The notes under the pieces are model-generated. The model saw only the letters and a list, made by a program, of their open reading frames with translations. It ran no database searches and was not told the origin of the DNA. 64,000 nt of DNA from Quercus robur (Eukaryota > Streptophyta > Magnoliopsida > Fagales > Fagaceae), in contig NC_065544.1 of NCBI RefSeq assembly GCF_932294415.1, forward strand, positions 37,318,310 through 37,382,309. Direction: 5' to 3'. The translations under genes and the position numbers were made by a program. Shown here piece by piece: positions 7,016 through 59,437 of this stretch (within the stretch, counting starts at the first letter, position 1; every line of letters starts with the position of its first letter).

Positions 7016-7793
7016 TATAGGAATAAAGACTCAAAATTATATATTGGGCCTTGGGCCTTAACCGAGGACGTTGGTTGGTCCGAGGACGAATAAATAGTAG
7101 TAAGGGTGTTAAGTTCAGAGTCTCATGAGTAGATTGCAAATAGAAAGGTTGGGGAAGGAAGGCCAAGGAGGAATGTCTTCTCCGATAAACAAAGCATAAA
7201 TCAAACATATATCCTACCATTCAAGGTGACCTTCCAGGAAGTTCCACTAATAAGAACTTGCTTTGTAAACGTACAAGAGGGATGTGAGCTTAGGAATATC
7301 TAAAAGAAAAGCCGCTACCACCGCATTGAATGCTTTGTAGCTAATTCTCTGACCGCATTAATGAGGAAGTGATCTCTGAACAATGTTTTTCAGCTTTACA
7401 GCTACCCCCAAAGATTTTAGGAGGGTGCTAATGGGATAAGGATCAACATAAGCAATCTACTATCCACGTGTAGGGTAAAGATGAGAAAGAAGAGATAGTA
7501 TAAATTAGAGTGAAGACCCTAAGAGAGAAAGCACTGTAGCAATCAAAATTTCATTTGTAACCTTTTTTAGTTGATTTATAGAAGAACTGACCTCTTCGGA
7601 CTAGGCCGAGGATGAATTTACTTAAACAGATCCTTCCTACTTTTGCTTGATTGTCTTTTAAATTCATTCTAACTGTTATCCAACTCGTTAGGGCCTAATT
7701 TTCCAACCCACTTTCTACAAATTCATTGTATTGGGCTTGCTAGACCTGGATCCATTTACATTTTAGGCTTGGGTTCCAAAGTGCGTCCTTACA
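7016..7793 (+). repeat. 3' LTR of the Gypsy element (start approximate)
   Basis: The right edge is firm: TCCTTACA at 7786-7793 directly abuts Copia LTR sequence. The left edge is inferred from a purine tract (GAGGGG, 7006-7011) followed by TATAGGAATAAAG, which pairs imperfectly with the terminal TCCTTACA. The LTR contains many copies of the CCGAGGA(C/T) word typical of these families. The matching 5' LTR is outside the window, so length (about 778 bp) cannot be confirmed. Confidence 0.6.
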
Positions 7794-8253
7794 CTCATTT
7801 ATGTGAATTGATGAAATCAATTACCCCTTAATGTCAGGTACGTTGATTGCTAGAATTTGAAATTCAAACATAATTCAAAATTTGAATAGCTATTGTCAAT
7901 GGTTTTAGTTAGGAAAATTCCTGAAAATTAATGTGATTTTTAATTCCATATATTAACAACTTTTAGTATACTTTCCTTTATAAAATTTTTCTTTAAAACA
8001 TTTTTTTTAGTATATTTAATAGTAACATTATAGATGGAAAGTATCAGAAAAATTATACAACTATACATTTATATAATTTACCGCTAATGGTTTATAGCAT
8101 TACAATTTGCTTTCCATTCTTGGTTGTAATTATTGTGTATAATCAAAGTTTCAAAGGAGAATATTAGTTGATATCTAAAAGTTAGTCACGTTATAGGCTG
8201 TTATTTTGTTTTCAATAGCATTATGACACTAAAAGACAAACTTGATTTTGGCT

Positions 8254-11200
8254 TTTTTTTTTTTTTTTTTTTTTTGGAAAGCGATCATTCATTCATATAA
8301 TCATAATAACAAAACATCTTGTATCAAGGCCTCCATAGCTGGAGGAGGAGAGTTCTCCATCCAATACACATCATTATCTAAAGAACTCCTAGCATGTTGA
8401 GCAAGAGCATGTGCAACCTTATTCCCACCCCTTCTTGTAATACTAATTCTAGCCCACTCTAAACAATGAACCAAGTGACGAATGCCATCCACCACATAGC
8501 CTAGTAGAGAGCAATTAATCCGCGACGATGAAACGGCTTGCATAACATTTACATTATCTCCCTCTATGATCAGCTTGGTGAATCTAGCATCCACAGAAAA
8601 TTCCATTAATCTTCTACATGCCAGTTGTTCTGCTTCCTCACTAGAACTCACCTTTGGACTAGTTGCTATCATTGCTGCCATAACCTGACCTTCCTCATTT
8701 CGAATAATTGCTCCCACTCTAGTTCTATCCAGGACTACAAAAATAGCTGCATCAAAGTTTGATTTGTAAGCTGATGATGGTGGAGGCTGCCAAGTTTTGT
8801 TGCACTATTGCTCCGTCTGTGTCACAGTCGGTTGCACCTGGGCTTATCTGTAATCTGTCAAATACTCCTCTACTCTATTATTTAGGTTCCTTGGGTCCAT
8901 TAGATTACCACCAAACACCACAGGGTTTCGCTGGTTCCATGCAAGCCAAGCATGAACCCAAAATAGCTCCAACTCCTCTCTTGTCAACCTGTCACTGAGA
9001 TACTCCATGAGTTGCATCACGTCAACTACACCTGAACATCTTTTCTACAATTTTTGACAGTTTCTAAACCAAATATCTTGCACGGCAGCAAACTCTCAAA
9101 TTGCATGGTTTGTATTCTCGGACTCCCTTAGACAGATTGGACATTTATCATCAGTTAGTACTCTTCTCCACACCAAATTAGCTCTTGTGGGCAATATGTC
9201 AGTGCAAGCCCTCCAACCAAAAACGTTAATTTTGTTAGGAATTTTGAGATTCCACAAAGCATGCCATATCTTCGTACCTGAACTATTAGCTAATGATTCG
9301 GCCCTATCCTCCCCTTGTATCCTCCTTGTCACCTTGTAGGCCGACTTAATAGAAAAGTTCCCATTTTTATTATAGCTCCAGATGATAGAATCTTCCACAT
9401 GTCTTCTGCTAAGCTGAATTCTACATATTGCTTTAGCATTATCCTGATGGAAAATTGAATGAATCAATTCACTCCTCCACATATGTATCTCTAGGTTAAT
9501 TAAATCTGAAATAGCCATCTCACCCAATAAATCATGGTTAGGATGTAATACCTTATTTGTAGGATGATTCGGGATCCACCTATCTCGAAGCACCCTAATT
9601 GAGCTCCTATTGCCGACCCTTCAACAATAACCAGCCTTTAGAATAGGCAAGGCAGCCACCAAACTCCTCCAAACATGAGAGCAACCCGGTGATTCCTTGG
9701 CATCAAGGAAAGAGGATCGAGGAAAATACCACGCTTTGAAACACTTATGTAGTAAGGAATCATTACCTTGAATCATCCTCCACCCTTGTTTAGCCAACAT
9801 AGCTAAATTGAATGCCCTTAGAAGTTGATAATTTATCCCAACTCTTCCAATGAATTTTTCTTTCATTGCCTACTTGTCCCCACCAAAACTTAGCACACAA
9901 ATTATTCAATTCATCACATAGTTTCAAAGGGAGTAGAAATACACTCATCGTATATGTAGGTATAGATTGAGCTACAACCTTTATAAGAATTTCTTTGCCA
10001 GCTGTGGATAACAGTATACCTTTCCATCCTTGCAGTTTTTTCTATACTCTATCCTTCAAATAAGCAAAAGTGTGATATTTATCCCTTCCAATCAAAGTTG
10101 GCAGCCCTAGATAGGATTCAAACTTCACCACCTCCTTGACCCCCAATATCTGAAATATTTGTTGTTTTTGAGTATCTGTAGTATTGTTACTGAAGAAAGC
10201 TGAAGACTTCTTCGGATTAATACTTTGACTTGAAGCTCGTTCATAAGTTTGAAGAATTTTTGCTACCACTTCCCTTTCCTTCGGTGTTGCTTGACAAAAC
10301 AACAAAGAGTCATCTGCAAATAATAAATTAGTAACTCTGGGAGCTCCACTACAAATTGACACACCTGTAATCCTCCCTTCTAGTTCAACTTTAGCCAACA
10401 GAGCAGTGAAGCCTTCTGCACATAAGAGAAACAAATATGGTGACAATGGATCTCCTTGACGTATTCCTCTAGACGGATGTATCATGCCATGAGGTTTTTG
10501 TTCATCAAAATAGAAAAAGATGTAGTAACACATCTCATCACTCTTTCTATCCACCTTGTTTGGAAACCCAACCTGTCCATAATTTTTTGCAAGAAAGGCC
10601 ATTCAACCTGGTTATATACCTTGCTAATGTCTAGCTTCAATGTCATAGTCCCTTTCTTGCCCTTCTTCCTCACATGCATGGTATGTATAGTGTCATAAGC
10701 CACCAAAACGTTATCTATGATCAATCTACCTAGAACAAAAGCACTCTGGGTGGGGGAGATAATATATAGAAGTGCCTGTTTCAATCTGTTTGCCAGCACT
10801 TTAGAAATAATTTTATAAATCACATTACATAGACTAATAGTCCTAAATTTAGACATTTTCTATGGATTTTTCACTTTAGGAATAAGTACAATGTTTGTGT
10901 GATTTATCTCAGGTAGCATATTTCCATTATTTAAAAAATCCAAAACAGCAGAAACTACATCATCACCCACTATATGCCAAAATTTCTGATAGAATAGAGC
11001 ATTCATACCATCAGGTTTTGAAGCCTTTGTAGGCTCCATTTGGAACAGAGCCACCTTAACCTCCTCAGCAATAAACTCACCCAACAAGACCTCTTGCATG
11101 TTGTCAGTCACTTTATTTGGAATTGCATTCAGACATTCCTCCATTTGATCAGTTGCACCTGCACTAAAAAGATTGTCAAAATAATCTAAAGCTACTTCAA

Positions 11201-11457
11201 CAACCTCCTCTAACTCCTCCACCCACTGTCCATGTGCATTTTGTATACTACTAATGTGATTTTTCTTCCTCCTTTGTGTTGCTTTAGAGTGGAAAAACTT
11301 CATATTCCTATCCCCATGCTTCATCCATGAAATTATAAACCTTTGTGCCTAGTAAATTTCTTGTTTCTGTAACAGATCATCCATTTGTTTGCTCACCTCT
11401 AGGAATTTAGTTTTATATTCTTAAGTATTTTTGGCTTCATTCAACCTGTCTAGCCAT
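8254..11457 (-). mobile_element. 5'-truncated L1-type LINE
   Basis: A minus-strand LINE shown by a poly(T) run at 8253-8275 (its poly(A) tail) and an 8-bp target duplication TTTTGGCT at 8246-8253 and 11458-11465. The uninterrupted site is seen once in the 3' LTR at 22160-22167. Only ORF2 from just before the reverse transcriptase to the terminal RNase H is present; the endonuclease and ORF1 are missing, as usual for truncated target-primed insertions. Confidence 0.92.
8301..11324 (-). pseudogene. LINE ORF2 (RT, zf-RVT, RNase H) remnant
   Basis: Reading the minus strand from 11324: an N-terminal linker (MKHGDRNMKFFHSKATQRR), fingers (KASKPDGMNALFYQKFW), RT core (FRTISLCNVIYKIISKVLAN, then TLKLDISKVYNQVEW), the GIRQGDPLSPYLFLLCAEGF block, the catalytic box as LLFADDSLLFC (plant LINEs commonly have FADD), then thumb. 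After frame breaks come the zf-RVT domain (WHALWNLKIPNKINVFGWR and DKCPICLRESENTNHA) and a C-terminal RNase H (8717-8301) with EEAEQLACRRLMEF and IIEGDN. Frameshifts and stops between segments make it inactive. Confidence 0.88.
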
Positions 11458-11548
11458 TTTTGGCTATTAACTTGCCTCAACATATATACATTGGCCAAAA
11501 AATTTTTATATATATATATATATATATGTATGTATATATATATATATA

Positions 11549-12515
11549 GATGGGTTCAAGTTAAACTCAGTGTAACTCTTGTAAAGTTACACTTTTTTTA
11601 CACCGTAGATTTCTAAAAAATCTAATGGTTAAACAAGATACCATTAAATGTTATTGTTTTCCACTTTTGTCTCTCTCCTTATTTATTGTTTTTCACTTGA
11701 TTAAAGGGCACTTGCCATTTTCAACAGCCCACTCTTCAAATGAGTCATTAAACTCTCTCCACCAAACCCACTTGATTTGGTCATGGTTTTTTTTTATTTT
11801 TTATTTTTTATTTTTTTTATAAAGATAACAAAGGCACGAGGACAAATCCTTCCAAAAATGATAATACAATAATTCTACACAACTTTAACTAAATTTAAAT
11901 CCTCACAATGCTGAATCACAAAGATGAGAAAAGTCTTTATTAAAATTTAAAAGTAGAAACTAATTTCTAATTTTATATCCTATCACCATAGCGAGGCAAC
12001 TTCCTAAAACATATATTGGTAGAACAATTGCACTCACCCACAGCCACAAGAATCTCTAGTAAAAAAACACTTCCAAATTAATAGCAATAAGCCACACAAC
12101 GACAACTGCAACCACCCAAAAGAATGTGCTCTCTTAGTTTCAGTTAGCTCTGGACTGACCAACTCAGGAAGAAAGGATGATGCTAACAATGAGACCATAG
12201 AGAGCCAGTGCTTCGGCAAAAATAAGAATAAGAATCATCCCAACAAAAAGCTTTGGCTATTGTGCATTGGCTCTAAAGTAGATTAGTATGGTTTCTAGGT
12301 TGTTGAAAATGGTGTGTGTCTTTAATCAAGTGAAAAATAATAAAACATTAAATAAGGAGAGAGAGAAAAAAAAATTGCTAGTATTAATTAGGAATGAGGT
12401 GGAAAGTTATAGCATTTAATAATATTTTTTTAACCGTTAGATTTTTTAGAAATTTACGGTGTAAGAAAGGTGTAACTTTACAAGAGTTACACCAGGTTTA
12501 ACTTGAATTCATCTC
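11549..12515. mobile_element. long-TIR MULE-like element carrying a host gene fragment (Pack-MULE type)
   Basis: The ends are inverted copies: GATGGGTTCAAGTTAAAC at 11549 versus GTTTAACTTGAATTCATC ending at 12513. Similarity continues inward for at least 95 bp and on to about 11705 and 12313. It sits in a TA-rich stretch of the Copia 5' LTR, so the target duplication is ambiguous; the 3' LTR (near 22245) lacks it. No transposase is encoded. The middle contains part of a V-ATPase gene in the minus direction. Long TIRs and captured host exon fit a non-autonomous Mutator-like element; the superfamily is inferred. Confidence 0.75.
12140..12274 (-). pseudogene. V-type proton ATPase 16-kDa proteolipid (subunit c), C-terminal fragment
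   Basis: Forty-five minus-strand codons match the end of V-ATPase subunit c, the membrane rotor subunit of the vacuolar proton pump: RANAQ, stop, then [20 protein letters not shown] and [10 protein letters not shown], stop, VGQSRAN, stop. The fourth membrane helix with its ion-binding glutamate (in FAEALALYG) is readable. Both internal stops are C-to-T type changes of CAG and CGA codons, and a conserved Gly is Ser. The match begins sharply at Arg, where an exon or capture boundary is likely. The sequence following the native stop probably derives from the parent 3' UTR. Confidence 0.88.
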
Positions 12516-12654
12516 ATATATAAAAAGAAACCTTTTGATCATATATTGATTTGAACAACTTTATGACCATTTAAAGTTAGCAAACATTTTTATTCTCTGG
12601 CTAAGGACAAGCTACATGTTCGGCTCTATATATATGAAAAGACACTACAACAAA

Positions 12655-13365
12655 ATGTATTTTTAGCGACGAAAATTAGTGAGGAAATATTTTTCGTCGC
12701 TAAAAATACAGCTTTAGCGACGAAATATGCATTTCGTCACTAATAATGAAAAAAAATTATAACATTTAGTGACGAAAAATAAATTTCGTCGCTATTGTGA
12801 TCTGAAAAATGGGCGCTAGCGGGGGAAATTTTGGCGGGAGCTTAATTAATCTATAGCGACGAAATATTTCGTCGCTAAAAGTTGAAATTTTTAGTGACGA
12901 AATATTTCGTCACTGTAGTTATTGCCATGGATAGTATTAGTGACGAAACTCCTTTCGTCGCTATAAGCAAGAATTAGCGACGAAAAATAATTGTCACTAA
13001 AAATAATAATAGTTTTGCACTTACATGTTTTAGCGACGAAATTATATTTCCTCACTAAAAGTATGCTATAGCGGCGAAATATGAATTTCGTCTCTAAAAA
13101 TATTTAGTAAATCTTGGTTCTTTAGTGACGAAATTTGCCTTCGTCGCTAAAAACTTAAAAGCTTAATACTTTTAGCGACGAAAATAGTCGTCACTAAAAA
13201 TAATAATAGAATTGTTGTAATATGTTTTAGCGACGAAATCACATTACGTCACTAAAAGTATACTATAGCGACGAAATCATATTTCGTCTCTAAAAACTTT
13301 AAAGCCTAAAACCTTTTGCAATGAAGTGGAAGCAATAGCGACAGAAAAATTCGTCGCTAAAGAGT
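12655..13365. repeat. CACTA left subterminal repeats
   Basis: A word of the form TTTAG(C/T)GACGAAA occurs in both orientations more than twenty times, often as back-to-back pairs that form hairpins. In En/Spm elements such subterminal motifs are the transposase-binding sites. Copies vary at GCGACG versus GTGACG, a CpG-decay pattern. Confidence 0.9.
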
Positions 13366-13369
13366 TCAC

Positions 13370-13377
13370 TATAAATA
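13370..13377 (+). promoter_or_regulatory. TATA box inside the CACTA element
   Basis: TATAAATA followed by CCCC and, about 30 bp downstream, a CT-rich leader. It lies immediately inside the subterminal repeats and upstream of an exon-like open stretch (13481-13826) ending in a splice-donor-like CG|GTAAGG. It looks like a promoter serving the carried gene fragment. Confidence 0.55.
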
Positions 13378-13480
13378 CCCCTTCCCCTGTGTTATTTCAC
13401 TCTTCAGCTCCTAAATAACACAGCGCCCTCAGTAAAAAAAAAAAACACAGCTCCCAAACAAAATCCCATTCTCGACGATA

Positions 13481-13830
13481 TTGAACAAACAACCATCGCC
13501 GATATTGAACAAAGAACTGTCGCCGTCGCCGATAGAGCCAACCGTCGCCGTTGCCGTCGCAGATAAGAGCCTACCGTCGTTGATTCAAACCCATTCTCGA
13601 CGATTCGAACCCAGTTGTCACCGATTCGGAGCCATTCTCGACGATTCGAACCCAGCCGTTGCCGATAGAGCCAACCGTCGCCGTCACCGTCGCAGATAAG
13701 AGCCTACCGTCGCCGATTCAAACCCATTCTCGACGATTCGAACCCAGTCGTCACCGATTCGGAGCCATTCTCGACGATTCAAACCCAGTCGTCGTCGATT
13801 CGGACCATTCGCGACGATTTGGATTCGGTA
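13481..13830 (+). repeat. 133-bp duplicated GC-rich minisatellite in a candidate first exon
   Basis: GATAGAGCCAACCGTCGCC starts at 13531 and again at 13664, with the following ~130 bp closely repeated, built from smaller units of the GATTCGAACCCAG / GACGATTC kind. The period of 133 shifts the reading frame between copies, so two overlapping ORFs result. It ends at a candidate splice donor near 13829. Likely 5' leader or exon 1 of the carried chimeric gene; no domain is recognisable. Confidence 0.6.
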
Positions 13831-14047
13831 AGGTTTTTTTTTTAAATTAATTAATTTATTTTTATTTTTATTTTTGCTGTGAATTACTTCTATTTCGATT
13901 TTTAGCTTAAGTGCTTTGTTAGCTTTGGTTCTTATGAATCGGATTTCCTTTTTATTTTTTTTTTATTTTTTACATGTGATCTAATTAATATTAATATTAA
14001 TATTAATATTCATTCATTAATTAGATTCATTCATTAATATTAATTAG

Positions 14048-14312
14048 ATTCCAAGCGCTTCTGATTTGCCTAAGGCCAACGATCTCAGCTCCATTGTACA
14101 CAACACCGTCCATGAGTAAGCTTATTTTCTGAATTTTGATTTATTTGGTTGAATTGAATTGAATTGAATTGAATTGGAATGGAATGGAAATTCGGTAATT
14201 ATTGCGATTTGTTTGTGTCATTTTTCTTAGTGTTGTAGAGGAAGGGAGACCAGAGCAGTGGGTTGAAGTGATCTCTTAGGAGCCTGGAGCTTTTGTTTAC
14301 CACAATTTCTTG
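14048..14312 (+). pseudogene. prolyl 4-hydroxylase gene fragment (two exons) in CACTA
   Basis: Exon 14048-14115 (after TTAG, ending GA|GTAAG) encodes IPSASDLPKANDLSSIVHNT. Exon 14231-14312 (after TTCTTAG, ending TTG|GTGAGC) encodes VVEEGRPEQWVEVIS, a stop, then EPGAFVYHNFL. Joined at phase 2 they match the segment before the catalytic domain of plant prolyl 4-hydroxylases, which hydroxylate cell-wall and secreted proteins in the ER/Golgi; the family has WVEVISWEPRAFVYHNFL. The stop replaces the conserved Trp (TGG to TAG). The catalytic exons are absent. Both introns keep consensus splice sites. Assignment rests on recognised family sequence. Confidence 0.85.
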
Positions 14313-14821
14313 GTGAGCTTTTTATTTTATTTTATTTTTGGTGTAATTGAATTGTGTGTGAATGAATAAGAAAAGATTAAGCTGTTAATGTTGATTAATT
14401 TTGTTTATATTAATGTTGCATTGTTTATCTTGATTATAGTAACTAAGATATGCATCTTTCATGTGAATTGAATTTGAATCTCCAAAATGTTCATGTTCAT
14501 GTAGTGTAATTTCTGTTTGATTGGGGAAATTGATTCAATTATTCTGTGTTCGATGGCGTTATCTGCATTATATATTAAGGAAGAGGAAAAATATTTGCTA
14601 GAAATGCGGTAAAAACTACAACTAAAAAGGTCAAACTTAGCTACAGATCTATAGGTGTTGTATGCTATTTGTTGTATTGACCAATAAGAAATACAAACCG
14701 TGTTATCTTCTCTTAATGACAATTAAATTCAACCATATGACCTATTGGCAATGGCAATGCAACGACATGGGTGAATTTAATTGAGGAACCTAATGTATAG
14801 AAACTAAGAAACTGTACTATT

Positions 14822-15012
14822 TGGTTGGCTGTCCCACATTGTTTGATGTGGTGCATTTGGCGGGAGAGAAATAACCGGACCTTTGAGGATTCTGAAAAAA
14901 AACAGTTTCAGATCTTATACTTTTCTTCTTTAAGACTCTTTTGGATTGGGTTGCAGTGTGAGGATATCGTTCTTTTATATTTTTTTTTATTTTTTTTTCA
15001 GTTCATGATTTA
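14822..15012 (+). pseudogene. LINE ORF2 C-terminal scrap inside CACTA
   Basis: Encodes VPHCLMWCIWRERNNRTFED followed by a short region ending at 15010. LMWCIWRERN.RTFED is characteristic of the zf-RVT tail of plant L1-like LINEs. Nothing upstream continues the match, so it is a fragment. Confidence 0.65.
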
Positions 15013-16029
15013 ATGGACTCTTGTAATTTTTGCACTTGATTGTATTTTAAATTTGGGTCTACTTAACCGTTCACTAAGAGTTAGCTTTCTTTTATTTCCA
15101 GCTTTCTCTCTTTTGTGGCTGAAGAAATTGTGAGGAACAAGGTGAAGAACACAAGTTAACTTTGAATTTTTTCTGAAAGTTGTAAACTTAGCTTGAGCAA
15201 AGTAAGTATATTCTAGATAAAAACTTATAAAACTCTATATATACTTGTGATTGGTTTTGTGGTGAGTTGTTGTGTTGGAGCGAGCAGGTGGCTTGCATGG
15301 TGTTATAAGATGGTTTAAATACATATTGAGAGTGTTTTTCAATTCTTGCAAATGTGAATGAATATTGTTAATTAGATGTGATGAATATTACTTTATTCGA
15401 TTTCAATACTTGTAAGCTTTGTACTTGTGATGTTTGTGATTGGTTTTGAGTGTGCAATGTATATTTGCTTAAGTATTAATATAGACTTGTGCATTCATGA
15501 ATGTACTTTATCTTTAAGTTAAAACACTTCATTTTTTATGTATCATTTGAAACTAATTGTATTATATTACACTTGAAAATTTATATTTGCTTTCTACAAC
15601 TTATACATTAAGAGTTGTAATTTTAATTTATTGGTGTGGCTACTCTTAATTCATTGTTAGAAATGTTTTTTATAACATAGTTAATGTTTTTACTTTACGA
15701 TTTTAATATAGTAGTGTTTTTATATTTGTGCAGATTTCTTATTGGTGGCTTTAGGGGATTTCCTTTAGGCATTATTTGAAGACATATGAGGACATCTTCC
15801 GTTGGTTTTAATTATATTATGCTACATTTTTTGTATTGTTATAAAACATCTTAAGTTATTGTATTTGTTGCAAACAATTATTGTATGGAAGGAGTTTGAA
15901 TTGAATACTTGTTTTAATTTTAACTTGTGAAATGTATAGATCAGTTTTTTATAAATGTGTTAATCATGTGAGGTTTTAATAATGTAATGACAGGTTACAG
16001 GTTAATATCAACGCCATGAAAATAATAAA

Positions 16030-16745
16030 AACAGAAAATAAGTTTTAGTGATGAATTTTTTCGTCACAAATATGGCAACAAAAAATTGTTTTAGTGACGA
16101 AATATTTCGTCACCATGGTTTTAAAAACCGAACCGGTCAAAGAACCGTTTTTTTTTTTTAATTTCCGGTTCAACCCCGGTTTTTGGCCGGTTTTCCGGTT
16201 ATTGACCGGTTAACCGGACCGGATTGGCCTCCGGTTCCCGGTTGAACCGGTCGGACCGGCCGGTTCGGTCCGGTTTTTAAAACAGTGTTCGTCACTAAAT
16301 GCAGCGGAATTTTGTAAGAAATGGTTTTAGTGACGAAAATTTTCGTCACTATATGTGTCTGGATTTTCTTAAAAATAGTTTTAGTGACGAATTTTTTCGT
16401 CACTATATGTACCCAAAAATAGTTTTAGTGACGAAATTATTCGTCACTAAATATGATTTAATAAACTGAAATGGTTTTAGTGACGAAATATTTTCGTCAC
16501 TAAATATTGTTTTTAGCAAGGAAAACATTTAGCGACGAAATGTTTTCGTCGCTAAAAGTTTTTAAAAAAAAAAACAAATCAAACTTTTAGTGACGAAATT
16601 TTTCATCGCCAGGACTTTTAGCGACGGGGCTACAGCGACGAAACGAATTTCGTCACTAAAAGTCCAATTTCGTCACTAAAGGTTCTTAGTGACGAAAAAC
16701 AGGACTTTTAGTGATGAATTTTTTCGTCACTAAAAATACATTTTC
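16030..16745. repeat. CACTA right subterminal repeats
   Basis: Same TTTAGTGACGAAA-type motif as at the left end, in both orientations, densely spaced up to the right TIR. The block is interrupted by the hAT-type MITE at 16114-16287, whose target duplication TTCGTCAC is itself part of one of these motifs. Confidence 0.9.
16114..16287. mobile_element. hAT-type MITE (CCGGTT-rich), copy 1
   Basis: A 174-bp GC-rich, palindromic element: CATGGTTTTAAAAACCG at one end and CGGTTTTTAAAACAGTG at the other. It has a perfect 8-bp target duplication TTCGTCAC (16106-16113 and 16288-16295). The 8-bp duplication is the hAT signature. A second copy lies at 37898-38090 in opposite orientation. Confidence 0.9.
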
Positions 16746-17160
16746 TTGTAGTGAGAAATAAAAGTTTCTAGGACACATTATTCTTGAATTACAAAAGCTA
16801 CAGATTTTCAAAAAAAAAAATTATTATTGTTCTAAACACTTACCATCTATTGCTTCTTATTATTCACAAAATATATTTTTTACTAAATTTTCTGGGAAAA
16901 GAAAGTACTATAGAGAGCTTATATCCTACGAGCAGTGTAGGCTTGCGAGGATAATCAGCAAAGGTGGCTAAACTGTTGTATCATGGGGATAATGTGCAAA
17001 AACTATTTGTCTAATTACATCGAATATACCTTAGACGACACGATTTGTCTCAAGACAGTGACCTGGTCCATGCCTCATCTCCACCACCTCTTTTGTTAAA
17101 ATCATATTGTGTAATTTCCAAGGAAAAATCTAGTAATATCTCTCCTTTATTTCCAACAAT

Positions 17161-17173
17161 TTGAGACAAATCG
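17161..17173 (+). promoter_or_regulatory. candidate self-priming primer-binding site of the Copia
   Basis: TTGAGACAAATCG starts two bases after the 5' LTR ends (17158), the normal position of a PBS. It lacks the TGG expected for pairing with a tRNA 3' CCA end. It is the exact 13-nt reverse complement of CGATTTGTCTCAA at 17041-17053 inside the LTR. In the 3' LTR (22652-22664) the partner differs by one base that would still form a G:U pair. Confidence 0.5.
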
Positions 17174-17175
17174 AT

Positions 17176-18130
17176 ATGGAGAACACAAAACCATCCTTGG
17201 AAAATGGTAATGTTATGTCTAATTCCTCTGGAGTGGGTGATCTTAATAAGACATTCCCCGTCTGTGGTGTTAACTTTAAGAGGTGGAGACAAAAGACTTT
17301 ATTTTATCTTACTCTCTTGAATTTGGCTTATGTGTTAATTGAGAAAAAACCAAAGAAAAAGAAATCTGAATAATTGATTGAAGAACTTTCTCAACATGAA
17401 AAAGATGTTAAGAAATGGGATAAGGATCATCTTTACTGTAGAAATTATTTACTTAAATGTCTTTCTGATGATTTGTATGATAATTACAATCAAGCTTACA
17501 AATCAACCAAAAAGATATGGAATGCATTAAATCAAAAATATGATACAGAGGAAGCTAGATCCAAGAAATATGCATGTAGTCGATTTTTCAGGTTTCGGAT
17601 GGTTGAAGGCAAGTCTGTGGTGGAACAATCCTATGAACTCCAAATGATTTCACAAGATGTTCAATCTGAAGGCATTCTAGTAGATGAACAAATGCAAGTT
17701 TCAGCCATCATTGACAAGCTGCTTGAGTCTTTGAAGGAGTTTGCCAAAGTCCTAAGACACAGGCAAAATGAACTCTCTATTGAATCCCTTATCACTCGTT
17801 TGAGAGTGGAGGAAGAGGCAAGGAACCAAGACAAAGTTGTTGAACTCCATGGAACAAATGGTCCTAAGGTAAATTTTATCTCTTCAAATGAAATCATGCC
17901 AAAAGCCAATGCAAAAAATAATGACTATGTAAGGCCTAAGAAAAGGAACTTCAAATGTAGGCCAAATGGAAATTAGCCTCAACATAAGACCCACTCTAAT
18001 GAAAGAAAGAACCAAGCACACCATCCTAAGCATACTCCAAATAATGGCAGCCACACTAATAATAGCAATTATGCATGTTTTGTATGTGGAAAGCCTAGAC
18101 ATTAGGCTAGAAATTGTCGTTTTCGAAAAC
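17176..18130 (+). pseudogene. Copia gag remnant
   Basis: The ATG at 17176 lies only 18 bp after the LTR. The protein opens [13 protein letters not shown] and reads [21 protein letters not shown], the typical start of plant Copia gag; a stop at 17371 interrupts it, then a 200-codon stretch (17374-17976) contains the gag-polypeptide core with KKIWNALNQKYDTEEARSKK. A CCHC zinc knuckle follows (CFVCGKPRH, stop, ARNC), its Gln codon changed to TAG. The missing leader, stops and frame changes indicate decay. Confidence 0.8.
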
Positions 18131-18138
18131 ATGGGCCT

Positions 18139-21059
18139 ATGGCTCAAGCCAATGTCATTGAAGAGCCTTTTGTGGCTATGGTTACTGAGATTAACATTCT
18201 CAAAGGCTTAGGAGGGTGGTGGATTTATTTTGGGGCAACGAGACATGTTTGCTATGGTAAAATTTGGTTCAAGACCTACACCATCCTGGATGAGAAAAAG
18301 AAAATTATGCTTGGTGAGATGTCTTTCATGTTCCCGACATTAGAAAGAATTTAGTTTCTAGTTTTTTGGTTCCATATGGCTTGTTTCAAACAAGTCTTTG
18401 AGGCTAATCAATATATACTCTCTAAAAAGGGCATGTTTGTTAGCAAAGGCTATGCTTGTGATGACATGTTTAAACTTAATGTTGAGATGAATGAAAATTC
18501 AAGTTTTGCTTATATTGTTTCTTGTGTGAATGTTTGGCATGGTAGATTATGTCATATTAATAATAAATATATGAAACATATGAGTGGTTTAGGTTTAATT
18601 CCTAAACTTGAAAAATGTGAAATATGTAGCATGACTAAAATTACTAGAAAGCCTCATAAATTAGTTGAAAGAAATACTGAATTACTAGAACTTATCTATA
18701 GTGATATTTGTGAATTTGAAGGACATTTGACACATGGAGGTAATCGGTATTTTATAAACTTTATAGATGATTTTTCAAAATATTCATATGTCTATCTTAT
18801 AAAAAAACAAAAGTGATGCTTTTGAAAAATTATCAATTTTCTTAAAAGAAGTTGAGAATACTTTTGATAAAAAGGTCAAAAGGTTTAGAACTGATAGAGG
18901 AAAAGAATATGATACTCTTGGTCTTTATAATTATATTCAATCTCTTGGTATTCATGAGACTACTACCCCTTATTCTCCATCTTCAAATGGAGTAGTTGAA
19001 CATAAAAATAGGACTCTTATAAATTTAACTAATGCTATGTTTGTTAGTTATAAGGCTCCTAAATATTTTTGGGGTGAAGTTGTTTTGAATAGAGTACTTC
19101 CTAAAAAGATTTTTTTTAACTCCTTTTGAATTATGGAAAAAATATAAACCAAATCTGAATTTTTTTTAAAGTTTTGGGTTGTTTAGCATATGTAAGGCTA
19201 CCTGACCCTAAAAGACCTAAACTTGGGGTAAAGGCTTTTACATGTGTATTTTTGGGTTATTCTTTAAATAGTACAACTTATAGATTTTTTGATATTGATA
19301 ATAATACAATAATCGAATCTAGAGATGCAATTTTTCATGAAAATAAATTTCCATTTAAATATAAAAATAGTGGGGGTTTTGAACAACAAGAGAAATTTGA
19401 ATGTTCAACATCTAAGTCAAAAGATGTTAATGAATATGAGATTGAACCTAGGAGGAGTAAAAGACCTAGAATTGAAAAGGTTTTTGGTCCTGAATATTAT
19501 GTGTATAATTTACAAGATGACCCTAATTCTTTAGAAGAAGCTTTATCTTCTCCTGATTCAAGTTTTTGGAAAGAAGCCATCAATAATGAGATGGATTCTA
19601 TTATTTCTAATAATACTTGGAAACTTGTAGATGTAAACCTCTAGGTTTTAAAACAATTGGATGTAAATGGGTACTTAGAAGAAAATTAAAACCTGATGGA
19701 TCTATTGAAAAATTCAAAGCAAGGCTTGTTACTAAAGGTTTTAAACAAAAAGAAGATATTGATTTTTTTCGATACTTTTTCTCCTGTTACTAAAGTTTCG
19801 TCTATTAGATTATTGATTGCTATAGCAGCGATTCATAATTTGATGATACATCAAGTTGATGTAAAGACGGTATTTCTAAATAGAGATTTAGAAGAAGAAA
19901 TTTACATGAACCAACCAGAAGGTTTTACAATGCCAGGTAATGAGCACAAGGTATGTATTATTAAAATCTTTATATGGTTTAAAACGAGCACCTAGACAAT
20001 GGCATGAGAAATTTGATCAATGTTTGCTTTCAAAACAAATGAAAGTGACAAATGTATATATTATAAAACTTTTGATGATGCTCATGTTATAATTTGTTTA
20101 TATGTTGATGATCTTCTAATTTTTGGTCCCAATATGGATATTATAATTGCTACCAAAATGCTTCTTAAAAAAACTTTGATATGAAAGATTTAGGAGAAGC
20201 TAATGTGATTCTTGGCATGAAAATTTCTAGAACTTCAGATGCCATATTTGTAGATCAATCTCATTATATAGAAAAAATTTTGAAAAAATATAATTACTTT
20301 GATTGTAAACCTGCAAGTATTCCTTTTGACTCTAATGTGCATCTTTTTCCTACTAAAGATGAAAATGATATTTACAATCATAAGGAATATGCTAGTATTA
20401 TTGGAAGTCTTAGATATGCTACTAATTGTACTAGACCTAATATTGCTTACGCCATAAGAGTTCTAGCAAGATTTACTAGCAAACCTAATTTTGAGCATTG
20501 GAATGCCATGACTCAATTAATGAGATATTTAAAAAGAACTGCGCACTATGGTTTGCTATATCAAAGATATCCTGCTGTTCTTGAAGGATATCATGATGCT
20601 AGTTGGAACACCTTATCAGGTGATTCTTTGTCTACCATGGGCTATGTATTTACAATAGGTGGTGGAGCAATAAGTTGGAAATCTAAAAAATAATAGATTA
20701 TTGCTAAATCCACCATGGAGGCAGAATTAATTGCCTTATCTTCAGCTAGTGAAGAAGCGAGTTGGTTACGAGATTTATTATTTGAAATTCCCATGTGGGA
20801 GAAACCTATTTCAACTATCTTAATTCATTGTGATAGTACTACCACTATTGGTAGAGTGCGCAATAAATACTCTAATGGTAAATCTAGATCTATTAGAAGA
20901 AAACACAGTACTGTGAGATCATACATAAACAATGGTACCATAAATGTTGATTATATTAGTACAAATGATAATATTGCAGATCCATTAACTAAAGCTCTAG
21001 CTAGAGAAAAGATTTGGATAGCATCGAGGGGGATGGGAGTTAAGCCCAAAGAAGAATAA
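18139..21059 (+). pseudogene. Copia pol remnant (integrase, RT, RNase H)
   Basis: Segments in order: a protease-like WWIYFGATRHVC (the usual DSGA is altered), the integrase HHCC domain (WHGRLCHINNKYMKHM with KCEICSMTKITRKPH) and first Asp (LIYSDICEFEG), later integrase pieces with YSPSSNGVVEHKNRTL, the RT with TVFLNRDLEEEIYMNQPEGF and YVDDLLIFG, and RNase H (KKIIAKSTMEAELIAL without the two stops, ending LADPLTKAL-like IADPLTKALAREKI). Stops and single-base shifts separate the pieces. Order INT-RT-RH is diagnostic of Ty1/Copia. Confidence 0.88.
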
Positions 21060-21652
21060 ACTATCTATGAGGATGCCCTACCTAGGGATTGGAGATCCCA
21101 GGAACTAGGTTCAAAGGAAAAAACTAATCATAGAATAGTTTGATTAACATGCACTAAATATATGTATGAGTACTAATACTCATCTCTCTCCCTATGGTGT
21201 GCGTGCATGTATCTTGCAACGTTATATAGGATGAGTTTTTATTTATTAAAAAAAAAAACTCTTAATGTGGACTATAGCTCTTATGAGTGGGATGTTAGAG
21301 TTACAAGAACATCCTTGATAGCTACACGGAAGTGAGCATGGAAGTGAGGCCACTTCCTTTGAGAATGGGGCTAGTTCTCTAAATAGCTGATGGATGCTAG
21401 GATTAAGCACAAGGCTGTAATGTGCTGGCTTAAAAGCTCGTAGTAGAGTACTGAAATATTATGTGTGTGATGTAATTTTTTGTATCCATACAAAAAGTTA
21501 TAGTTCAAGACTTAGATCACTATTTACTTTGGAACAATGTTGCTAAAACACTAAATGAGGGTTCAAGCCATTGGCGCTCCTACTGTACATAATGTTCTAC
21601 TTAACCCAGAAATTTTTTTCTTATATATATTTACCTATTTATTTTTTATAAA

Positions 21653-21666
21653 AATAAGTGGGGGAT
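21653..21666 (+). promoter_or_regulatory. Copia polypurine tract
   Basis: AATAAGTGGGGGAT immediately precedes the 3' LTR start TGTTGGA, the position and composition of a plus-strand primer site. Confidence 0.85.
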
Positions 21667-22217
21667 TGTTGGATATTTTTATAGAAAATATCATATTTAT
21701 TTTAATACTCATTTATGTGAATTGATGAAATCAATTACCCCTTAATGTCAGATACGTTGATTACTAAATTTTGAAATTCAAATATAATTCAAAATTTGAA
21801 TAGCTATAGTCAATGGGTTTAGTTAGGAAAATTCCTGAAAATTAATGTGATTTTTAATATCATATATTGACAGCTTTTAGTATACTTTATTTTATAAACT
21901 TTTGCTGTAAAACATTTCTTTTAATATATATAATAGTAACATCATAGATGGAAAGTATTAGAAAAATTATACAACTATACATTTATATAATTTACCGTTG
22001 ATGGTTTATAGCATTACAATTTGGTTTCCATTCTTAGTTGTAATTATTGTGTATAGTCAAAGTTTCAAAGGAGAATATTAATTGATATCTAAAAGTCAGT
22101 CACGTTATGGGCTGTTATTTTGTTTTCAATAGCATTATAACACTAAAATACAAACTTGATTTTGGCTATTAACTTTCCTCAATGTATATACATTGGCAAA
22201 AAAGCTTTTGACCGGTT

Positions 22218-22249
<32 letters not shown>

Positions 22250-22767
22250 TAGAAACCTTTTGATCATATATTGATTTGAACAACTTTAAGATCATTTAAA
22301 GTTAGCAAACATTTTTATTCTTTGGCTAAGGACAAGCTACATGTCGGGCTCTATATATATGAAAATAAATAAAAGTTTCTAGGACACATTATTTTTGAAT
22401 TACAAAAGCTACAGATTTTCAAAAACAATTTTTATTATTGTTCTAAATACTTACCATCTACTACTTCTTACTATTCACAAAATATATCTTCTACTAAATT
22501 TTCTGGGAAAAGAAAGTACTATAGAGAGCTTATATCCTATGAGCAGTGTAGGCTCGCAAAGGTAATCAGCAAAGGTAGCTAAGCTGTTGTATCCTGTGGA
22601 TAACATGTAGAAACTATTTGTCTAATTACATCGGATATACTGTAGATGACACGATTTGTCTTAAGATAGTGACTTTGTCCACGTCTCATCTCCACCACCT
22701 CTTTTGGTAAAATCATATTGTGTAATTTTCAAGGAAAAATAAGGTAATCTCTCATTTATTTCCAACA
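21667..22767 (+). repeat. intact 3' LTR of the old Copia
   Basis: A 1101-bp LTR bounded by TGTTGGA and TCCAACA. It matches the four pieces of the 5' LTR and shows the uninterrupted sites for the LINE (22160-22167), the MULE (near 22245) and the CACTA element (near 22360), giving independent proof of those insertions. Confidence 0.93.
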
Positions 22768-23037
22768 AACACAATATTGGCAATGTTTAGTATCCTACTA
22801 GTTATTGGCAAGCAAACCTTCAAATCCAATCTCTCTCGCTCTCTCTCTCTCTCTCTCGGAAAAATAAATTGCCGTCTGAAAGTTGAAGACTTCTCAAATC
22901 TCATAACTATAGTCTATAATAGATGATTTCCTGAGAGTGATCAAGTGCCCACAAAGCAACAAGTCAATGTACATAATTAACTTGCCTCATGTTTTTTCCA
23001 CGTTCAAATCCTTTAAAATGACGATCCAAATGGTAGA
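22768..23037. other. left part of segmental duplication unit A
   Basis: Non-coding sequence matching 39946-40010 and 40573-40698 (for example CTAGTTATTGGCA and GAGTGATCAAGTGCCCACAA). It includes a (CT)n run at 22832-22857. The match resumes after the inserted gag-only retroelement at 31118. No gene seen. Confidence 0.75.
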
Positions 23038-24929: not shown

Positions 24930-25994
24930 CTAAGTTGTGAAGCTGTCAAGTTTTGCAGACAAGACATCAATCTGGTCTTGCATGGCTCTCATCCTGTCAG
25001 AGTGCTCAGTTTGGACTGCCCTGATCCCATCAAGTCTTTCCAGAATGATTTGGAAAGCATCTAGAGGTGTATCTGCAGAAGTTGAAGCTCTGGGTCTTTT
25101 GCCACTCCTCCTAGGTGTTGAGGTTGATGCATGCCCTGCTGCCTCTGCTTCAGTCTCCATTGGGACACCCTCTCCTTCATCACCTTCATCTTCTTCTCCC
25201 GGAAGCCTAACACTTATCCTTTTGCAGGTAAGCTTGTTAATTGTAGAGGGTGTGGACATGGGACTGATGTCTTGAGGGATTGGAACACCCTTCCTTCTAA
25301 AAATCCTCATTAGCAAACTGGGAAAGATCAATTTAGGCCTAGAGGTTGTTCTTGTCTCATCCACAATGGTGTCATATATGTGGGAACTTATGTCTATGAA
25401 ATTCTTTTCTTTGAGATCCATCAGAAAAACTGCTCTAGCACAATTGATTGTAGTCAATTTCTTAATGGGATAGAGGTTAAACATCATGATTATTGTTAGG
25501 CACCTCATGTCCACTGGAAAGGCAGTGGTATTCAAACATTTCCCTTCTCTCTGCCCACCTATCCTTTGTTGAACTGTTTCAATAGAAACACTTCTATCCT
25601 TATAATTGATAAATTCCTCATCATCTAATCCTTCAAGCCCTAGTACATCATCTATGACATGAGCATCCAAAACGAATTCTTTACCTCTAACCCAGCAACT
25701 TAATTCATTCTCCTTTATCACAGCATTTGAGTAAAATTCCCTAATCAGGGGTTCACACACAACAGGGAAATCGCTCAGAAGCTTTTCCCATCCTCTTCCT
25801 TCAAAACAGTTGGGAATAAAGGTTTGTCTTAAGTCCTCCAAATCTACAAATCTTTCTTGAATAATTCCTGCATTCAAGAAGTTATCCTTGTATCTCTCAA
25901 AGTGATGAACTGACCTAAACAGTTTAGAATCCATCTTTAATCTTTTGTCAGCCTTCTTTGCAGTAGATTTCTTCTTCTGAGGTGAGGGAGCCAT
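24930..25994 (-). CDS. extra ORF in pol position, plant transposon-like protein
   Basis: An open 354-codon frame from MAPSPQKKKSTAKKADKRLK to LDSFTT. I prefer this start to the upstream ATG at 26060 because TTGTTCACAG just before it looks like a splice acceptor. The N-terminus is a basic, Lys-rich tract (possible nuclear signal). The middle has FEGRGWEKLLSDFP, IREFYSNAVIKENELSCWVR and DDVLGLEGLDDEEF, resembling the 'putative plant transposon protein' domain found in LTR-element extra ORFs. The C-terminal third is acidic, then RRSGKRPRAS, then a coiled-coil-like helix (RLDGIRAVQTEHSDRMRAMQ). Function unknown. It shares strand with gag but is separated from it by 2 kb. Confidence 0.75.
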   Translation of the reverse strand: MAPSPQKKKSTAKKADKRLKMDSKLFRSVHHFERYKDNFLNAGIIQERFVDLEDLRQTFIPNCFEGRGWEKLLSDFPVVCEPLIREFYSNAVIKENELSCWVRGKEFVLDAHVIDDVLGLEGLDDEEFINYKDRSVSIETVQQRIGGQREGKCLNTTAFPVDMRCLTIIMMFNLYPIKKLTTINCARAVFLMDLKEKNFIDISSHIYDTIVDETRTTSRPKLIFPSLLMRIFRRKGVPIPQDISPMSTPSTINKLTCKRISVRLPGEEDEGDEGEGVPMETEAEAAGHASTSTPRRSGKRPRASTSADTPLDAFQIILERLDGIRAVQTEHSDRMRAMQDQIDVLSAKLDSFTT

Positions 25995-26508
25995 CTGTGA
26001 ACAATCAGAAAAGGCCACAACAACATAGAACAATATATGTGCATAACCAGTCAGTACCATGTAATTAACAAAGAGATATCATCCATACAAATGAACTTTG
26101 AACACTTAAACAATAAGCTACTTAGATCAATCACATGGATAAACCAAGCCTAGGATAGGAAACACATGAACAACATGGAGAAACTATCCTAAAGGTAGAT
26201 ATATGTCATTGAGACAGATAATGGAAAAATGATATGACACACAATCAGTATTTTGAGGCTAACAGAAACTCCCAACAGATTAACACAATAGAACATGCAT
26301 ATTTAGGACAGCAAAACTCACAGCCTCAAAAGGAACAATTTGAAACAACACAACAGCTCAAGATCAGATAAAAGACACACTAAGCTAAGCATGAACAAGG
26401 AGCAAAAACCGAAACACAAACCCATTTCAAAAACCCAAACATATGCGAAAAATCAAAGGGGCAAAGCACAAAATCAAGTAGAGAAGAGTACAAAACTGAA
26501 AACCCATA
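25995..26508 (-). other. candidate 5'-UTR intron of the extra gene
   Basis: Minus strand CACAG|GTATGG at 26508 (donor) and TTGTTCACAG|ATGG at 25995 (acceptor) would remove a 514-bp leader intron and place the ATG at the start of the next exon. Inferred from splice consensus only. Confidence 0.45.
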
Positions 26509-29995: not shown

Positions 29996-30007
29996 GCTCT
30001 GATACCA
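29996..30007 (-). promoter_or_regulatory. primer-binding site, initiator tRNA-Met
   Basis: Minus strand TGGTATCAGAGC, complementary to the 3' end of plant initiator tRNA-Met, two bases from the LTR edge. This is the standard Copia PBS and contrasts with the older Copia in this window. Confidence 0.97.
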
Positions 30008-43104: not shown

Positions 43105-44361
43105 ATGGCAAGCATTTCTCTACTTATTAGACAATTTATCTACACCTCCCTCATCTTCCTTCCATGCCTTCTCTGCGTAAACTCCACATGCTCATGCTCA
43201 CCATCACCACCTCCACCTCCTTCACTGGACTTTAATTTAACCTTCGTAGACATAAGGCTCGCCGTTGTCTACCCAATAATCCAAAGTTTCAAGAAGACAA
43301 TCACTGCAGACCCCTTTAACAAAACCAAAACGTGGGTTGGTTCAGACATATGCAACAAGTACGAGGGCTTCTTCTGTGATATCCCACCGGACAATAGATC
43401 CGCCAAGGCCCTCGCCGCCATTGATTTCAATGGATTTCAGCTTGCAGCCCCTACTCTTGAAGGTTTCATAGACCAACTTCCTGACCTTGCAATCTTCCAT
43501 GCCAACACCAACAACTTTTCTGGTATTATTTCACCAAATATCTCAAACCTCCCATATTTCTACGAGCTTGATATAAGTAACAACAGATTTTTTGGGGAAT
43601 TTCCACAAGCAGTGTTGGGCATGAACAATATATCATTCTTGGACATCCGGTACAATTTCTTTACTGGGACAGTGCCACAACAAGTTTTCATGCAAACCCT
43701 AGATGTACTTTTCATTAACAACAACAATTTCAAAAGGCAGCTACTCCCTCAGAACCTTGGCTTCACCTCTGCACTCTACCTCACATTTGCAAACAACAAA
43801 TTCACCGGTCCAATCCCACGAAGCATAGGAAATGCTTCATCAACATTGCTCGAAGTGTTATTCTTGAACAATCAATTAACCGGTTGTATTCCCTACGAAA
43901 TTGGATTGTTACAAAAGGCCACAGTCTTTGATGCCGGAAACAACTTTCTGACTGGGCCTTTGCCGTGGTCGCTAGGCTGCTTGGATAGTATTGAGCAGCT
44001 GAACTTTGCTGGAAACTCTCTCTATGGAGAGGTGCCTGAGGTGGTGTGTCTACTAGGGAACCTGTTGAATCTTTCACTGTCAGATAACTATTTTACTCAT
44101 GTTGGACCTGTGTGTAGGAAGCTGATAAAAAAAGGGGTTCTTGATGTAAGGGACAATTGCATTTATGGTCTCCCTGATCAGAAATCTTTGGGGGAGTGCT
44201 GGTGGTTCTTCTTCTACTCTAGATTCTGGCACTGCCAATACCCTTGGTGGTTGAGTACTTATGTTCCTTGTAAAACTTATACTCACTTTAAAAAAGCTCC
44301 TCCAGTGGGGTCCAAGAGAAGATTGATGTCTTATGCTGCTCTTGGAAGAGAGAGATTGTGA
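43105..44361 (+). CDS. secreted leucine-rich-repeat (extensin-like) protein
   Basis: A single 418-codon exon. Residues 1-27 form a signal peptide ([20 protein letters not shown]). A short Ser/Pro linker (SPPPPPS) precedes an LRR N-terminal cap with paired Cys ([16 protein letters not shown]). About eight to nine plant-type LRRs follow between residues 100 and 340 ([50 protein letters not shown]). A C-terminal Cys-bearing cap ([18 protein letters not shown]) ends the protein. No membrane helix or kinase follows, so it is likely a cell-wall or apoplastic protein related to LRR-extensins and At4g06744-type proteins. The last ~55 residues look unusual for the family, perhaps a frameshifted tail. 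Partner not known. Confidence 0.82.
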
Positions 44362-57715: not shown

Positions 57716-58708
57716 TCAATCATCATCCCCTGATGATAAAGAAACTGAATTTGATGATGGCAATGATGTAGACAAAGAAGAAGTTGAATTCTTACAAAAC
57801 TCAAACCTGTTCTCTTCCATTCTCTCCAACACAAAATGCGCCAACAATTCCACAGTCTCAACCAAATTCTCTTCGCACAAGAACTCATCACTGCAAATCC
57901 TCTCAACCTCTCTTTCAAAATCGTGAACAAAAACATGGGTCTTGGAGTTGGAGTTGGAGTTGGACCCACCGACCTTCTTGCTCCTCGCCAAAACGCTCGC
58001 CGTAAATATCGCCGACATTCTCCCCGGTGCATTGGCGAAATACCCACGTGGCCCATCGACCAGAATCACGTCCCACGGCACGTCGTACAAGTGGTTCGGC
58101 ATGTCGTTGATCCCCAGCTTACATTCCGAGAACAAGAGATTCTGCACCGGTCGGCAGTCGTTTTTGACTGCCGATTTCGTGACAGAGATGAGTTCGCTCA
58201 TGTCGGAGACTTTGGTTGTGTACGACACGTCGTAGGCTTCGATTCCAGGGTGCGACTGCTCGAATTTCGAGACCAAGAACTCGTTCTCGTCTAAGTAAAC
58301 GGTTCTGCCATTAAAGTTGAGAGCTTGCCAGAGTAGAGACTCGTGGGTGAGGCCGAAGATTAAGAAGTTACAAGTTGGGGAGCAGTGGGTGAGAGTGGTG
58401 GCTATGGAGGTGAGTTCAGAAGAGGACATGTGGATAGTGGTGGCGTTTGATGTGGCGGCGTAGTGGAGGAGAGCGTCGGAGATGGAAGGTGGGATTGGAG
58501 CTGTAAAGGCCGAAGCTTGGCTTGTGGGACTGATTGAGGATGGCATGGTTGAGTTAAGGAGAGTGATGGTGAAAGCTAAGGTGAAGACTGTGACTATAAA
58601 CACCAGCCACAACCGGTGTGTGGAGGAGAAGGAGGAGGAGACGGCGCCGCTTTGCTTGTGGATTGATGGGTGGAGGAGTATTACTTTTGTGTTGGTGTTG
58701 CTCTTCAT
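57716..58708 (-). CDS. IRX15/IRX15-LIKE-type xylan protein (DUF579)
   Basis: A single 330-codon exon. The start at 58708 gives [19 protein letters not shown], the family N-terminus; an upstream in-frame ATG (58861) would add 51 atypical residues. A short cytosolic tail precedes one membrane helix ([19 protein letters not shown]), making a type II Golgi protein. The DUF579 domain follows: [84 protein letters not shown]. Family members methylate glucuronic acid on xylan or, for IRX15, affect xylan chain length in secondary walls. The Asp/Ser-rich tail is typical. IRX15 versus IRX15-L cannot be settled. Confidence 0.93.
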
Positions 58709-58712
58709 TTTT

Positions 58713-58734
58713 GGAGAGAGAGAGAGAGAGAGGG
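58713..58734 (-). repeat. (GA/CT)n microsatellite in the 5' UTR
   Basis: An uninterrupted (GA)n run on the plus strand, i.e. (CT)n four bases before the ATG on the gene strand. CT-rich leaders are common in plant genes. Confidence 0.85.
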
Positions 58735-59437
58735 AAATTGCTTTTGATATTTGCTTGGAAGTGAGCGAGGGACAAGAGAAATCACGGAGGAAATTTGAGT
58801 TTAGAGAGATTAAGGGCACGAATCCCAAATGGGTGAAAGTGATGGACCTGGTAAAGATCAAATGTGGGGCCTGAGTTTTTGGAAGAGAGGGGTGAGGTGG
58901 GGGACGAGTGGGAGCAGGTCATAAAAGGAGGGAGTGAAGGGCTTACATGTGTACGACTGAGTGAAGTGAAAGAGACCAGGTATCTATCTATTGATGAGGT
59001 CGTCGGTGGTTTTGTTGTGGGTTTTTTGAAAATTTTGAAGGGATACTACGAAATTTGGAGTCCCTCTTGTAAGGGGAAATGAATAACCTTATAAAAACAA
59101 AATAATACAAAGTCACGGGAAATTGGGCATAAATTGAGGTTGTGGTGGTAGGAACAAGCAAAGGATTTGTGGAAATTAACTTTTGGCAAAGATGGAAGCT
59201 TGTTGGCCTCACTTTTTTTTTTTTTTTTTTTAATAAAATAAATGGTTAAAGGAGGGTGATCAATGTAGTTTTCCTATTATTAATGTAGTTTTCCTACTTA
59301 GGTGCATTCTAACTATTTTTGAATTAAGATCTCACACTACAGCTAATGGTATTGGAGTTGCAACACACTACTAGTTGGGGAACTCGGACCTATGTCTTAA
59401 GGCATGTTGGCCTCATTTTTTACTAGCTTAGCTTAGC
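58735..59437. other. upstream region of the IRX15-like gene
   Basis: Presumed promoter and 5' UTR on the minus strand. A TATA-like TTTTTATAAGG lies near 59085 (minus). No other gene; small ORFs on both strands have no family resemblance. Confidence 0.4.

Follow-up and report, generated by a model that had tools for sequence, protein, structure and literature searches.

A 13-nt sequence lying beside the 5′ LTR of a Ty1/copia element from Quercus robur is likely the primer-binding site (PBS) of a self-priming element, most likely of the TAR lineage, of which an old and dead copy is preserved here. It is located in a stretch of 64,000 nt (contig NC_065544.1, positions 37,318,310 to 37,382,309 of the forward strand), hereafter called the window; all coordinates below refer to it. 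The putative PBS, TTGAGACAAATCG, is separated by two bases, A and T, from the end of the 5′ LTR at 17158 (terminal sequence TTTCCAACA). It can pair over its whole length with a segment of this LTR, and the pairing is lengthened by one G:U (17054/17160). For the duplex formed by the putative PBS, the calculated energy amounts to −19.4 kcal/mol against the 5′ LTR piece, and to −17.2 kcal/mol against the 3′ LTR (Table 1). A previous sequence-only reading of the window had given the coordinates of the LTR end and of both 13-nt stretches, their exact complementarity, and the G:U through which the 3′ LTR partner pairs; all of this is confirmed on the sequence. The gag start codon, reported to lie 18 bp past the LTR, is however separated from it by 17 nt. 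The primer segment is repeated imperfectly at 17003-17014 (CTATTTGTCTAA); this repeat is common to both LTRs and is taken as a chance occurrence.

Table 1. Features of the element, of its insertions and of the second Copia gag ORF of the window.
Feature	Position	Strand	Remarks
Putative self-priming PBS TTGAGACAAATCG	17161..17173	+	2 nt past the 5′ LTR end; LTR complement
Putative self-primer segment CGATTTGTCTCAA in 5′ LTR	17041..17053	+	Exact reverse complement of 17161-17173
3′ LTR counterpart of primer segment CGATTTGTCTTAA	22652..22664	+	Single C-to-T; pairing kept as G:U
5′ LTR piece 1 (LTR positions 41-504)	7793..8256	+	93.1% identity to 3′ LTR
LINE-like insertion in 5′ LTR	8257..11457	-	T-run at left edge; RT-type ORFs
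5′ LTR piece 2 (LTR positions 494-587)	11458..11550	+	84.0% identity to 3′ LTR
965-bp MITE-like insertion in 5′ LTR	11551..12515	.	Inverted ends GATGGGTTCAAGTTAAAC...
5′ LTR piece 3 (LTR positions 575-699)	12516..12640	+	93.6% identity to 3′ LTR; TATA-like CTCTATATATATG near 12627
CACTA-type DNA transposon in 5′ LTR	12643..16753	.	Ends CACTACAA/TTGTAGTG
5′ LTR piece 4 (LTR positions 701-1101)	16756..17158	+	89.6% identity to 3′ LTR
gag	17176..17973	+	ATG 17176; in-frame stop 17371-17373; Retrotran_gag_2 E 5.3e-22 on 17374-17973
pol remnant	17977..21056	+	Separate stop-free pieces, frameshifts, stops; integrase-side domains before RT, as in Copia
3′ LTR, 1101 bp, TGTTGGA...TCCAACA	21667..22767	+	Purine-rich AAGTGGGGGAT just before
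Other Copia gag ORF, 661 aa	27971..29956	-	Retrotran_gag_2 E 2.8e-28; adjoins perfect tRNA-Met PBS 29996-30007

The element belongs to the Ty1/copia superfamily, as shown by the Pfam domains Retrotran_gag_2, gag_pre-integrs, SH3_retrovirus and RVT_2, found in that order and each above its curated cut-off in at least one piece. Matches were obtained for seven of the 10 scanned pieces, four of them above the cut-offs. In pol, these are gag_pre-integrs, SH3_retrovirus and one RVT_2 piece; Pol_BBD and two more RVT_2 pieces fall below. No Pfam match was obtained for the first 65 residues of gag or for the two pieces assumed to hold the integrase core (18803-19126) and RNase H (20697-21056). Without its insertions, the element measures 6710 bp (2 × 1101 + 4508). 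Comparison of the two LTRs over the 16756-17158 piece gives 40 differences in 401 sites (K2P 0.108). The copy is old, frameshifted and dead; what can be proposed about priming concerns its ancestor.

The 5′ LTR extends beyond 16756-17158. This region is the last of four pieces that begin at about 7793 and are interrupted by three insertions; of the 5′ LTR, the first 40 or so LTR positions were not found. The LINE-like insertion (8257-11457) has the same 11 LTR positions on either side, and its ORFs match zf-RVT (9096-9593) and RVT_1 (10042-10602) in Pfam, with no match for 10860-11324. The insertion at 12643-16753, which from its ends we take to be a CACTA transposon, is bordered by a 3-bp duplication, AGA (12640-12642 and 16754-16756), and its insertion point is directly downstream of the TATA-like site CTCTATATATATG. 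Many repeats of the type TTTTAGTGACGAAA...TTCGTCACTAAAA are found toward one end of this transposon (16031-16739).

The sequence-only reading had stated that the expected PBS position is unable to pair with the CCA end of a tRNA, and this is borne out. TGG is absent from the first 18 nt past the LTR and first occurs at offset 18, inside the start of gag. Near the junction, the best match to the tRNA-Met-type site TGGTATCAGAGC has 6/12 mismatches. On these two grounds, a primer of the tRNA-Met 3′-end type was rejected. A control is provided by the only exact TGGTATCAGAGC site of the window, which lies on the minus strand (29996-30007) beside the other Copia gag ORF; this ORF is presumably of SIRE type by resemblance. 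The fact that this other ORF adjoins a perfect Met-type site, whereas the element studied here has none, argues in favor of self-priming. So does the counterpart of the primer segment in the 3′ LTR, which still pairs despite the divergence of the LTRs. Self-priming appears to be the best explanation, and the most economical one, for the place of the site, its complementarity to the LTR and the lack of a tRNA site. When the ancestor was active, RNA from 17041-17053, within the portion of the transcript derived from the 5′ LTR, would fold onto the PBS at 17161-17173. A nuclease, probably the RNase H of the element itself, would cut after about 17053/17054. The 3′ end freed in this way would then prime minus-strand synthesis back through U5.

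Alternatively, the junction may be a decayed leader, where the original tRNA site was mutated or deleted and where the complementarity to the LTR is a functionless chance match. The copy is indeed old and broken, with stops and frameshifts in addition to its LTR divergence. Nevertheless, at least 6/12 mismatches to a Met site are more than a substitution of about 5% per lineage would be expected to produce, an argument that covers substitution and not deletion. Moreover, with the 25 nt following the 5′ LTR as target, dinucleotide shuffling of the 403-nt 5′ LTR piece never gave a 13-nt run in 5000 trials (a 12-nt run in 4/5000), and shuffling of the 1101-nt 3′ LTR gave a run of 13 nt or longer once in 5000. 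In the real 3′ LTR, the longest exact run is limited to 10 nt because of the C-to-T change in its copy, and 81/5000 shuffles attain that value. Among 16-nt windows compared with the 403-nt piece, a run of at least 13 nt was found in 0/1492 internal windows and in 6/9108 windows from 23000-64000; 7/1492 and 23/9108, respectively, are as good or better by energy. Looser controls give a less favorable picture. Outside 16000-23000, 100 of 11398 25-nt windows, which take in displaced 5′ LTR pieces and TA runs, match the 3′ LTR over at least 13 nt. Of 117 stretches taken from the window, each 545 nt long, 14 contain an inverted repeat of at least 13 nt. The 13-mer with up to two mismatches has five occurrences in the window versus 2.07 expected (7/100 shuffles reach five). 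The commonness of such inverted repeats and the 10-nt exact run in the 3′ LTR weaken the case for self-priming. In view of these looser controls, this case stands on position and not on length alone: by itself, a length of 13 nt is not extraordinary, but its position at the place of a PBS is. Overall, we consider a decayed leader unlikely.

Two further explanations keep a function for the junction and assign it differently. A half tRNA, or an internal region of a tRNA, may have served as primer, as in Bianca or Osser, the LTR complement being coincidental. Neumann et al. (2019; PMC6317226) did predict such primers in certain plant Copia lineages, and the absence of a tRNA-Met 3′-end site here is in line with this idea. 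However, whereas Bianca, Osser and Bryco have a half tRNA-Ile or tRNA-Met PBS, the longest exact complement found here is only 4 nt for tRNA-Ile-AAU and 5 nt for initiator tRNA-Met, the two tRNAs compared. A half-tRNA Met/Ile primer was rejected on this basis, and the explanation as a whole seems very improbable. The stem could also be a structure of the leader RNA involved in packaging, dimerisation or translation control, with no role as a primer. In four of seven sequence contexts, RNA folding predicts the 13-bp stem (mean pair probabilities between 0.49 and 0.97), accompanied there by a short U5 stem (probability 0.31 to 0.62). Yet, the element would then be left without a recognised primer site, and the place of the stem is exactly that of a PBS; a purely structural role is thus quite unlikely. 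It should be noted that the stem is near zero in the three other contexts (16960-17300, 16770-17300 and 17000-17300), where local alternatives win. The stability of the whole fold is ordinary (z −0.85 and −0.61), 37/200 and 29/100 shuffles folding equally well. Because the fold varies with the context, the predicted hairpin was not accepted as a proof. Self-priming is weakened by this ordinary stability and context dependence, and also by a predicted RNA start that differs from that of Tf1.

Concerning this start, 15 TATA-like sites were detected in the 3′ LTR by a simple pattern search, and each of them precedes the primer segment. The two sites closest to the segment, at LTR positions 686 and 688, overlap one another; the primer segment begins at position 986. 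If transcription starts, as is usual, about 30 nt after the TATA site, the RNA would begin about 270 nt before the primer segment. In Tf1, it is the 5′-terminal 11 nt of the RNA that pair with the PBS (PMC7175516), so that a strict likeness to Tf1 is doubtful. Hence, of the Tf1-like self-priming put forward by the sequence-only reading, self-priming remains the best reading, and the use of the RNA's own 5′ end as primer finds no support in the position of the nearest TATA-like site. Either transcription begins at a TATA-less start nearer 17041, or the primer is internal to the transcript. An internal primer, about 270 nt from the 5′ end, would represent a variant of the Tf1 mechanism, perhaps common to TAR elements; we put this forward tentatively, as the less probable side of the question. 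If the RNA start at the TATA-like site is real, an internal cut would be needed to free the 3′ end of the primer. Strong-stop DNA would in that case contain only the last 105 or so bases of the LTR. The resemblance to Tf1/sushi elements lies in a PBS located beside the LTR and complementary to the element's own LTR-derived RNA, over 11 nt in Tf1 versus 13 nt here. These elements are of a different superfamily, with Ty3/gypsy chromovirus proteins; gag and RVT_2 are of Copia type in the present element according to Pfam.

In a survey that covered 5410 Ty1/copia and 8453 Ty3/gypsy elements of plants, 12% of the elements were predicted to be self-priming, a property assigned to the TAR (Ty1/copia) and Tcn1 (Ty3/gypsy) lineages; among the remaining Ty1/copia groups, the predicted primer is a complete tRNA-Met for most elements and a half-tRNA for a few (Neumann et al., 2019; PMC6317226). 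The same paper credits Capy 2005 with an earlier proposal of self-priming for Houba and Osr-1. Thus, the oak element looks like a self-priming type already described for one plant Copia lineage, and the statement of the sequence-only reading that no established plant Copia case was known was incorrect, because the TAR prediction was already in print. Like the TAR lineage (Houba, Osr-1, Fourf; PMC6317226), the element has the Copia domain order, no tRNA-Met-type PBS and a PBS complementary to its own 5′ LTR, here as an exact 13-nt complement. Sizes are also similar, with an LTR of 1101 bp in an element of 6710 bp versus 968/6437 for Houba and 965/6400 for Osr1 (PMC1940013), two rice elements that Neumann et al. 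(2019) place in TAR. The copy studied here differs in being dead, with a 5′ LTR split by three insertions. For SM-Tcn1, one plant Tcn1 element, neither tRNA priming nor self-priming was found (PMC2864245). This result contrasts with the prediction of self-priming for most Tcn1 elements (PMC6317226) and leaves Copia elements untouched. The fungal GalEa elements, also Copia, have no tRNA PBS and carry an inverted repeat at the place of the PBS; this is however a conserved local palindrome or hairpin, for which the authors found no complement in U5 (PMC5445492). In the accessible text of PMC4659654 and PMC2206039, the term "self-priming" appears solely within a reference title. The literature searched, in its accessible portions and with few subscription-journal papers, yielded no experimental test of TAR self-priming and no mapping that places the self-primer of TAR elements, Houba included, with respect to the 5′ end of the RNA. 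The oak element offers a clear single-copy illustration of apparent tRNA-free priming in a plant Copia element, of a type that methods based on the tRNA-Met site would miss.

Searches with protein pieces, two against genome contigs and three against viral contigs, gave no relatives. In the viral contigs, one match to the junction pattern (L001), presumably phage-like from its appearance, is without an upstream partner and was judged to be due to chance. The stem pattern gave 12 stretches (L002-L013). When part of gag and the RT/RNase H piece P0001 were used as tblastn queries against these 13 loci, and not against whole contigs, two weak gag matches were obtained (E 0.20 and 0.22), which are also taken as chance. 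Other features were observed in the window. Fragments of RT type are found at 243-2129, with RVT_1 in 243-707 and a weak RVT_3 in 1584-2129; we assume them to be Ty3/gypsy-like. An ORF of 376 aa on the minus strand (24930-26060) matches Pfam Transposase_32, a putative plant transposon protein (E 1.2e-21). The ORF at 43105-44361 (418 aa) contains leucine-rich repeats (Pfam LRR_1), and we take it to resemble an extensin-like LRR protein. Finally, a minus-strand ORF of 381 aa (57716-58861) belongs, by its Pfam match (E 3.3e-78), to the xylan-related IRX15/IRX15L/GXM family of plant proteins.
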